Below, piece after piece: positions 24,089 through 27,278 of a stretch of 37,984 nt of DNA. A model generated the notes under the pieces. The model ran no database searches and was not told where the DNA came from. It was given only the letters and a program-made list of their open reading frames with translations. Origin of the DNA: an uncultured Prochlorococcus sp. (GTDB taxonomy: Bacteria; Cyanobacteriota; Cyanobacteriia; PCC-6307; Cyanobiaceae); NCBI GenBank assembly GCA_902634515.1, contig CACPKH010000013.1, positions 1-37,984 of the forward strand. The letters are read 5' to 3'. Position numbers and translations under genes: made by a program. Positions within the stretch are counted from its first letter, which is position 1; each line of letters opens with the position of its first letter.

Positions 24089-24472
24089 CTACCTAACATG
24101 TCTTGAACCATCCACAGGATGATAATCATCTCCTGTTAGTTCTTCATAAATAATTGCAGGCAGTCCTGTTTCAAACATTGTTTGCAAGGCCTCTTTTAGG
24201 AACGGATTCCAGCCACCAGTACTTACTTTCCCATGTCGAACTGTCCAATCCCAAGTTCCTTGCAAATCTCTAGGCATTCTTCCTTCTCTATCACGCCTAG
24301 CAACCAAATCTAGAGACTCAACCAATCCAACTTGCACAGGATCTTTACCATATGCAGGTGTAAGGCTTAATTCGAGGCGAACCGGGTCCTCTTTTAATAG
24401 CCGAACTCTAAATCTTGGAGGCAATTTCAAAGTCTTTAAGACCGAAACAACTATGCGTGTTCTTTGATCCAC
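24089..24472 (-). CDS. Conserved-type cyanobacterial protein, unknown
   Basis: A 127-residue soluble protein of unknown function. The N-terminal half is basic (VLKTLKLPPRFRVRLLKED), the middle has LVARRDREGRMPRDLQGTW, and the C-terminal half is rich in aromatic and acidic residues (LTGDDYHPVDGSRHV). No motif I can name. The start is GTG 24472. It lies between the DUF2973-like gene and hli on the same strand, with spacers of 51 and 80 bases. Its well-composed sequence and codon use fit a real, conserved gene. Confidence 0.72.
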   Translation of the reverse strand: MDQRTRIVVSVLKTLKLPPRFRVRLLKEDPVRLELSLTPAYGKDPVQVGLVESLDLVARRDREGRMPRDLQGTWDWTVRHGKVSTGGWNPFLKEALQTMFETGLPAIIYEELTGDDYHPVDGSRHVR

Positions 24473-24523: not shown

Positions 24524-24790
24524 TCATAGCACTTCTTCATTAGATGAGGCTGGGGGGTCTAACTCATTTGAAAAACGTACTGTAAGAAGATCTTCATCTG
24601 TAATTTGACCTTCTTGGGTCAACAACTCAGGGTGAACTGTTAACAAGCCTGTTCGATCAATTCTATCCTTTTCTTTCTTTCTATCAATATGATCAATAGA
24701 CAGTAGACCCTTAGTCATTACTCTAAATGCCTGCCATAAAAGGAGTATGACAACTGAAAAATATAAAAGTGACACAAGATAATTGTTCAT
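24524..24790 (-). CDS. DUF2973-like small membrane-anchored protein
   Basis: An 88-residue protein with one N-terminal membrane helix (about residues 4-22) and a charged cytoplasmic tail. The block TGLLTVHPELLTQEGQITDE followed by DLLTVRFSN is, as I recall it, the DUF2973 signature of cyanobacteria (HPELLD..G....E.LL.vR). Function unknown. It starts at ATG 24790 and is the first gene of the minus-strand series leading to hli and xseAB. Confidence 0.68.
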   Translation of the reverse strand: MNNYLVSLLYFSVVILLLWQAFRVMTKGLLSIDHIDRKKEKDRIDRTGLLTVHPELLTQEGQITDEDLLTVRFSNELDPPASSNEEVL

Positions 24791-25054: not shown

Positions 25055-25539
25055 ATGCTCAAAAGTTTCCTTTTTGCCTTTCCTAATTTGAGGTTATTGT
25101 TTAGGCATAAGTTCTTGGAAAAAAGTTGACGCAAATGAATTATTAAAACGTGAATCTCAGCAAATTTCTAAAAAATCATTTATATCTATTGCCCTTGAAA
25201 GAAGTACGCCTGCAATAGTAACTATTGAGACAAAAAGAAAGATATTTTTAAGGAAAATCAATGTCTTTCACCGAAATTTATTTATTGAGCCCTATCTTCA
25301 AGGTTTCATTGGAATTCCAAATGGTCAATCATCCAATAATAGGTGTAAATTTAATCAGTTATAAAGAAGATTCTTTAAATTCTGGAGCCAAAATAGTATC
25401 TATTATTCCAGGAAGTCCAGCTCATAAAAAAGGGCTTAAGGTCAATGATGTTAAAATTTAGATAAACTCAGTTCCTTTTAATAGTCCTGAAGATATCGTG
25501 AAAAAAGTTAAATTTTCCTCTAAGAGTAATAGATATTAA
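25055..25539 (+). pseudogene. htrA: Decayed HtrA/DegP-type serine protease (catalytic core lost)
   Basis: Remains of a periplasmic HtrA-type protease in different frames. Frame A (about 25092-25320) reads KKSFISIALERSTPAIVTIE followed by NLFIEPYLQGFIGIP, matching the N-terminal segment before the protease domain (SFV..A.ERtgPAVV.I.TE). Frame B (from about 25321) reads VNHPIIGVNLISYKE and AKIVSIIPGSPAHKKGLKVN, the start of the PDZ domain, then a TAG at 25459-25461 interrupts DVKI/INSVPFNSPEDIVKKV, which continues to TAA 25537-25539. The roughly 200-residue trypsin-like domain with the His, Asp and Ser residues is missing at the frame change. A possible signal-like start (MLKSFLFAFPN) at 25055 is in a third frame. 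I infer an internal deletion plus point decay. Confidence 0.8.
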
Positions 25540-25574
25540 TAAAATTCTATTCTTACAGGAAAGAAATATTTAAT

Positions 25575-27278
25575 TTATCTCTTTTTGTTTTTTCTCTTTT
25601 TATTAGCTAAACGTTTTTCTTCTTTCTTTGCTAATTCAATTTCTTCTTCCCTTAAAACCTTTTCTTGTAACTTCTTTTCCTGGTAATAAGAATAATCTCC
25701 TCTATAAAGATAAAGTTGTCCATCTCTTATCTCAACGATTCGATTGGCAACTTTTGAAATAAAATACCTATCATGAGAAACAAATACTAAAGAACCATTA
25801 TATTCTCTAATCGCATTTTCTAACATTTCTTTTGCTGGTATGTCCAAATGATTAGTAGGTTCATCAAGTAAAAGTAAATTAGATGGCTTAACAATTATTA
25901 AGGCTAAGGCTAGTCGGGCCTTCTCTCCCCCACTTAAATTATCAACATCTTTAAAAACATCATCATTAGAAAAGCCTAATCCTCCAAGTAGTGAGCGAAC
26001 TTTTGTTTGAGTCCAATCAGGTACTACTTCAAATAAAGTATCTATAACTGTTCTTCCTAAATCAAGAGCTTCAGACTGATTTTGTTCAAAATAGCTAGGA
26101 ATAATATTATAGTTACCTAACCGAACTTTTCCTTCCTCAGGCTGCTCTAATCCCATTAAAAGGCGTAATAAAGTTGATTTACCTGTACCATTAGCTCCTA
26201 ATAGAGCTATATGATCTCCTTTTTCAATTTCAAGATTTGCATCTAAAAATACAATCTTATCTCCATAAGTTAAAGACATTTGATTGATAGTTGCAATTTC
26301 CTTACCTGATCTAGGTGCTTCAGGAAAAGAGAATTTAGGTCTCTTAATAGCACTATCTGGCGATTCAAGGATATCAATCTTATTAATAAGTTTTTCACGA
26401 CTTTTAGCTTGTGTACTTCTAGTAGCACTGGCCCGGAATCTATCAATATAAGATTTCTGAGATATTAAATGTTTTTGCTGACGATCAAACGCTGATTGAG
26501 CAGATTCTTCATCAATAGCTCTTTGCTCAAGATAAGAAGAGTAGTTACCAATATAAGTATGTGAGCATCCTCTCTCTATATTTACAATATTAGTACATAA
26601 TCTATCTAGGAATCTTCTATCATGGCTAATAATAACCATGGCAGATTTCTGCTTTAAAAGATAAGATTCAAGCCATTCAATTGTTGCAATATCCAGATGA
26701 TTTGTAGGTTCATCTAATAATAACAAGTCTGGTTCTTTAAGAATTATTTTTCCTAATGCAATTCGCATTTGCCAGCCTCCAGAGAACGAACCTAATATTT
26801 GATCTCCTAGATTTTCATCAATACCAATTTTAGGAAGAAACTTTTCTACCTTTGCTTCTAATTCGTAACCATTTAATCCTTCAAATCGACTTTGCAAGAT
26901 TCCTAGTTCCTTTATCAAGCTATCTAAATAATTAGCATCTTCTAGAGCTTTCTTCGAGCTCATTAACTTCTCAACATTTAACTTCTGATTAAGGACTGAT
27001 GCCGCTTCAGAAAATGACTGAAAAAGCTCTTCTTTGACTGTATGTTTTAAATCAAAATCAAATTCTTGATGAAGATAGCCAATAGAAGGTGAACCTTCAC
27101 GAATAATCTCTCCATCAGTGATTTCTTCCAAACCAGCAATTATTTTTAATTGTGTTGATTTACCGGAACCATTTACTCCTACTAAACCAATTCGTTGGCC
27201 AATTTTTATTTCCCATGTAACATCCTTTAAAACCTCACAAGTGGGATAAATCTTACTAATTCGCTCAAGTCTTAGCAC
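25575..27278 (-). CDS. ABC-F family ATPase (two ATP-binding domains)
   Basis: A soluble protein with two ABC domains and no membrane segment, 567 residues, of the ABC-F family that acts on ribosomes. Domain 1 has Walker A GVNGSGKST (about 34-42), signature LGSFSGGWQMRIALG and Walker B LLLLDEPTNHLD. Domain 2 has GANGTGKST, LSGGEKARLALAL and LLLLDEPTNHLD. A long charged linker (about 235-310, rich in Arg/Lys/Gln) lies between them, and a Lys-rich tail ends the protein. The exact subfamily (Uup-, EttA- or other) cannot be fixed by eye. The start is GTG 27278. Confidence 0.92.
   Translation of the reverse strand: MLRLERISKIYPTCEVLKDVTWEIKIGQRIGLVGVNGSGKSTQLKIIAGLEEITDGEIIREGSPSIGYLHQEFDFDLKHTVKEELFQSFSEAASVLNQKLNVEKLMSSKKALEDANYLDSLIKELGILQSRFEGLNGYELEAKVEKFLPKIGIDENLGDQILGSFSGGWQMRIALGKIILKEPDLLLLDEPTNHLDIATIEWLESYLLKQKSAMVIISHDRRFLDRLCTNIVNIERGCSHTYIGNYSSYLEQRAIDEESAQSAFDRQQKHLISQKSYIDRFRASATRSTQAKSREKLINKIDILESPDSAIKRPKFSFPEAPRSGKEIATINQMSLTYGDKIVFLDANLEIEKGDHIALLGANGTGKSTLLRLLMGLEQPEEGKVRLGNYNIIPSYFEQNQSEALDLGRTVIDTLFEVVPDWTQTKVRSLLGGLGFSNDDVFKDVDNLSGGEKARLALALIIVKPSNLLLLDEPTNHLDIPAKEMLENAIREYNGSLVFVSHDRYFISKVANRIVEIRDGQLYLYRGDYSYYQEKKLQEKVLREEEIELAKKEEKRLANKKRKNKKR

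Follow-up and report, generated by a model that had tools for sequence, protein, structure and literature searches.

The window analysed here is the whole 37,984-nucleotide stretch of contig CACPKH010000013.1 from an uncultured Prochlorococcus sp. (assembly GCA_902634515.1), and the locus of interest is the slot of 784 bases between its DUF2973 gene and its ABC-F ATPase gene. This slot holds no ordinary open gene, its sole open reading frame comprising 66 aa, but it contains the remains of an HtrA gene, spread over positions 25055-25546. The genes flanking these remains on either side are open and conserved, the ABC-F gene being 75% identical between the window and its sister genome AG-363-M21. 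The features are the following:

24524..24790, minus strand: DUF2973 gene, 88 aa, conserved neighbour (Pfam PF11189, E 6.4e-18; same neighbour in the relatives' loci)
25055..25129, plus strand: probable original start and signal-peptide region, translated as MLKSFLFAFPNLRLLFRHKFLEKS followed by a stop, at the position of the N-terminal leader in relatives
25089..25091, plus strand: TGA at the upstream edge of the frame of piece A (translation)
25104..25322, plus strand: piece A, the HtrA region preceding the protease domain (tblastn E about 2e-9 for L022 and 6e-9 for the sister locus L029, at the same-slot htrA; shuffle test)
25323..25332, plus strand: deletion junction with ambiguous breakpoint, GGTCAATC being like relatives on both sides
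25327..25509, plus strand: piece B, the PDZ domain, in a frame different from that of piece A (PF13180 E 1.3e-6; tblastn E 9e-14 against L006 and L029)
25459..25461, plus strand: in-frame TAG within the PDZ domain (translation; the PF13180 match spans the stop)
25508..25546, plus strand: LNFPLRVIDINKI, possibly left over from the HtrA C-terminus (translation compared by eye with the C-termini of relatives)
25575..27278, minus strand: conserved neighbouring gene for an ABC-F ATPase, transcribed convergently to the fossil (NCBIfam NF000355 above cut-off)

Beyond the DUF2973 gene, positions 24089-24472 of the window encode a 127-aa protein with 83-92% identity across the group and no match in Pfam or NCBIfam. 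In the region of the fossil, Rfam yielded no matches.

The first-pass annotation of this DNA had described two fragments in different frames that match the two ends of an HtrA protein, and both are indeed present. Piece A translates in a single frame as GISSWKKVDANELLKRESQQISKKSFISIALERSTPAIVTIETKRKIFLRKINVFHRNLFIEPYLQGFIGIPN (25104-25322), which contains GISSWKK, ALERSTPAIVTIETK and IEPYLQGFIGIPN, and piece B reads NHPIIGVNLISYKEDSLNSGAKIVSIIPGSPAHKKGLKVNDVKI, then TAG, then INSVPFNSPEDIVKKV (25327-25509). When 300 dinucleotide shuffles per piece were scored against the HtrA of the sister, the maxima were 49 for piece A and 44 for piece B, far below the best local scores of 146 and 107 obtained with the real pieces. 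A tblastn search with both frames, as the annotation had proposed, found matches at the same-slot htrA of L022, L029 and L006, the best matches of the pieces being HtrA genes. In addition, a whole-genome search with the Pfam PDZ_2 model (PF13180) placed the locus above the curated cut-off (E = 1.3e-6) with one TAG within the match, so that a PDZ domain homologous to that of Deg proteases is present with a stop inside it.

What has been lost from this gene? As the annotation had noticed, the trypsin-like core is missing between the two fragments. Compared with relatives, about 185 codons are gone (551 bp relative to the sister genome), and with them the catalytic His, Asp and Ser, i.e., the entire trypsin-like core; a trypsin-like domain with the His-Asp-Ser triad is absent from the locus and the genome's single Trypsin_2 match sits on contig C7. 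The breakpoint can be placed only to within about ten bases, as GGTCAATC at the junction resembles relatives to the left (IPN-x-QS) as well as to the right (GGTCAA), and a precise microhomology could only be proved with the pre-deletion sequence of the window's own lineage. No uninterrupted frame with a start codon runs through the locus, the remains being distributed over three frames, and the TAG that the annotation had seen breaking the PDZ domain is confirmed at 25459-25461. No ATG, GTG or TTG was found in the open stretch of piece A, between the TGA at 25089-25091 and the TAA at 25362. The only candidate for the original start is the ATG at 25055 (MLKSFLFAFPNL...), which lies in a third frame ending at the TGA at 25127-25129; this region is probably the original start and signal-peptide region, now out of frame with piece A. 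The final approximately 30 residues of relatives are absent from the frame of piece B, leaving a shortened C-terminus. In another frame LNFPLRVIDINKI resembles the terminal IKPVDI ("PVDI") motif, a short match made by eye that tentatively identifies a C-terminal remnant, and such a remnant in a shifted frame would mean a second, smaller deletion. Altogether, the disabling changes number at least four, comprising the core deletion, the frame changes, the break in the start region, the TAG in the PDZ domain and the C-terminal deletion, and therefore no one sequencing error, which the annotation had named as a possible refutation, and no one amplification error explains the locus.

The loci of relatives were obtained through the neighbouring ABC-F protein or by DNA. 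An HtrA gene sits in the same slot, flanked by the DUF2973 and ABC-F genes, in 11 of 12 Prochlorococcus-group loci retrieved with ABC-F, the twelfth (L021) ending just past ABC-F and thus too early to show the slot. In the loci of relatives both pieces match the strand opposite ABC-F, at places that lie between this gene and the DUF2973 gene, and wherever the slot is complete the htrA frames run without interruption for about 380-412 codons, the sister being the exception. In aligned relatives, the positions that match the last residue of piece A and the first of piece B lie 185-186 residues apart, and this stretch contains the His motif TNAH, the Ser motif GNSGG and the Asp motif LTD (ITD in L024 and L026). 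The idea of a decayed HtrA protease is hence borne out by relatives: almost all marine picocyanobacteria related to the window carry at the same chromosomal place, in exactly this slot, an intact ortholog with complete catalytic residues. The annotation had also asked whether close relatives might hold an intact reading frame devoid of a protease domain; none was found among the relatives with an occupied slot.

Elsewhere in the family, at least two HtrA matches were found in all but one of 34 single-contig genomes. The exception is G074 (one contig, 99% complete), in which 723 bases (L078, 5389-6111) separate the DUF2973 gene from the ABC-F gene, with no htrA match in this interval, and the single HtrA of the whole genome is of the other, paralogous type. 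This interval represents a separate, clean loss of htrA. Five other genomes in which only the paralog was found (G044, G056, G066, G076 and G103) were rejected as further losses, since the anchor gene is missing as well and the apparent losses are due to assembly gaps. In G002, the third member of the genus, the assembly contains neither anchor gene nor a close ABC-F, and the locus is probably unassembled.

The closest comparison is provided by AG-363-M21 (genome G001, locus L029 on its contig C9), which has a full-length htrA with all catalytic motifs. The sister gene carries one additional T in a run of seven T (ATTTATTTTTTTCCAATAAAGG) at about 8510-8530 of L029 on the minus strand, just before the protease core, which breaks the frame after GSGFIFF; the other 286 codons are open and conserved. 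This frameshift may be a genuine mutation of recent date, an error of assembly or a slippage site. It probably arose separately from the lesions of the window, as the sister gene is otherwise well preserved, and it would not be visible in the window since the corresponding stretch is deleted there. It could be imagined that, within one small Prochlorococcus genus, this htrA copy is being lost more than once and each time independently, through a deletion in the lineage of the window and through the T7-run frameshift in the sister, with the sister gene perhaps keeping a low level of expression through transcriptional slippage, albeit we consider this scenario rather unlikely. A literature search on the name of the sister strain returned no matching paper.

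Several observations bear on the age of the decay. In the ABC-F tree the window and L029 are sisters with a support of 0.996 and L018 is next, and the window also groups with L029 in the HtrA trees (support 0.795, and 0.946 with paralogs included). The HtrA branch in the full alignment is longer for the window than for the sister (0.56 vs 0.38), whereas the ABC-F branch is slightly shorter (0.16 vs 0.19). Among 20 columns within the pieces that are invariant in 11 intact orthologs, the window retains 17 and the sister 19, which makes the decay look recent compared with the divergence of the two lineages. Private changes at codon positions 1, 2 and 3 amount to 8, 8 and 4 in the window and to 6, 5 and 13 in the sister; the share of positions 1 and 2 is thus 16/20 vs 11/24 (Fisher p = 0.03, with small counts), while at positions 1 and 2 alone private changes are not significantly more frequent in the window than in the sister (16/125 vs 11/120, p = 0.42). 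Taken together, branch lengths, invariant columns and codon-position shift suggest, with modest statistical support, that selection maintained the gene through most of the period after the split and that its decay came late. The hope expressed in the annotation that relatives would disclose whether deletion or stop came first was disappointed: the order is not readable from those examined, since both lesions are missing from the sister and the G002 assembly lacks the locus.

A search for other htrA copies, also proposed in the annotation, revealed an intact trypsin-PDZ HtrA of 370 aa elsewhere in the genome (C7:52046-53047), which belongs to a paralog clade kept by all nine family genomes examined. 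As the assembly is 66% complete in 41 contigs, a further HtrA copy may be unassembled. Redundancy with the C7 copy is likely the reason why the loss was tolerated. Two relatives, G047 and G005 (L095 and L096), have a third HtrA-like match, in frames of 471 and 450 aa, that covers query residues of about 116-279, i.e., the protease part with no PDZ aligned, and may correspond to the Deg type without PDZ that a review of these proteases names (PMC4877387).

How is this locus best explained? We are highly confident that positions 25055-25546 are a unitary pseudogene, derived from the ABC-F-linked single-PDZ Deg/HtrA serine protease and inactivated after the split from AG-363-M21. Chimeras are known from amplified single-cell genomes, the genome of the window is incomplete and fragmented, and the sister is itself an assembly from an uncultured cell, so that a chimeric join or an assembly collapse might have produced the deletion together with the frame change. 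Such an artefact is very improbable, however, as the break in the start region, the TAG and the C-terminal deletion are all separate from the core deletion, both flanking genes are open and conserved, and the private changes of the window are shifted toward codon positions 1 and 2. Slightly less probable still is a living small gene, either a PDZ-like peptide of 66 aa (25261-25461) or a fusion achieved through recoding. This reading frame spans half of the PDZ domain and PDZ scores are still detectable, but the TAG halves the domain, the first part of the frame is out-of-frame sequence, such a frame replaces the full htrA in no relative, and the plus strand offers no promoter-like site, promoter-like matches being fewer than in shuffles. 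Some cyanobacterial Deg proteins lack a domain or have an inactive one (PMC4877387), which could bring to mind an ancestral HtrA relative that never was a full protease. This is refuted by the sister and the other relatives with an occupied slot, all of which carry the protease core there, and its probability is negligible.

According to the pseudogene explanation, the common ancestor of the genus would still have had an intact htrA, which would have been inactivated in the lineage of the window after its split from that of AG-363-M21. About 550 bp inside the gene would have been deleted, and with them the trypsin-like core and its three catalytic residues, accompanied by the frame changes, the break in the start region, the PDZ stop and the C-terminal deletion. 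We infer that the locus encodes no working protease; the role in periplasmic quality control would presumably fall to the other HtrA gene, that on contig C7.

The intact orthologs in the same slot are single-PDZ Deg proteases like the cyanobacterial HhoA/HhoB/HtrA family (NF041521; PF13365 and PF13180), and the nearest solved structures are those of Synechocystis HhoA (5t63, 5t69, 5b6l). The orthologs match the NCBIfam models HhoA/HhoB/HtrA (NF041521) and TIGR02037 below the curated cut-offs, the intact ortholog of L027 reaching 355.7 bits against the 450-bit cut-off of NF041521, and no subtype is assigned; the HtrA tree contains no Synechocystis sequences and does not place the ABC-F-linked copy in the classes of the review. 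Unlike members of this family, the window copy is interrupted and devoid of the protease core. Literature searches for HtrA pseudogenes in Prochlorococcus returned no relevant paper. The review counts three to five Deg genes in most cyanobacteria and only two in several Prochlorococcus strains; moreover, it reports that the HhoB/HtrA-type gene was lost in SS120 and NATL1A and the PDZ domain in high-light strains (PMC4877387). The decay in the window is an event of the kind already described for this group; it adds a new case to the known trend of Deg loss and is as such a clear but unexceptional example of ordinary reductive evolution. The interval between the DUF2973 and ABC-F genes allows intact, frameshifted, fragmentary and absent states to be compared at one place. 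Whereas the review lists absences and shortened genes (PMC4877387), the window presents a copy visibly in mid-decay of one of the two Deg genes usual in complete Prochlorococcus-group genomes, so that a single step in the loss of Deg proteases can be seen with its scar preserved.
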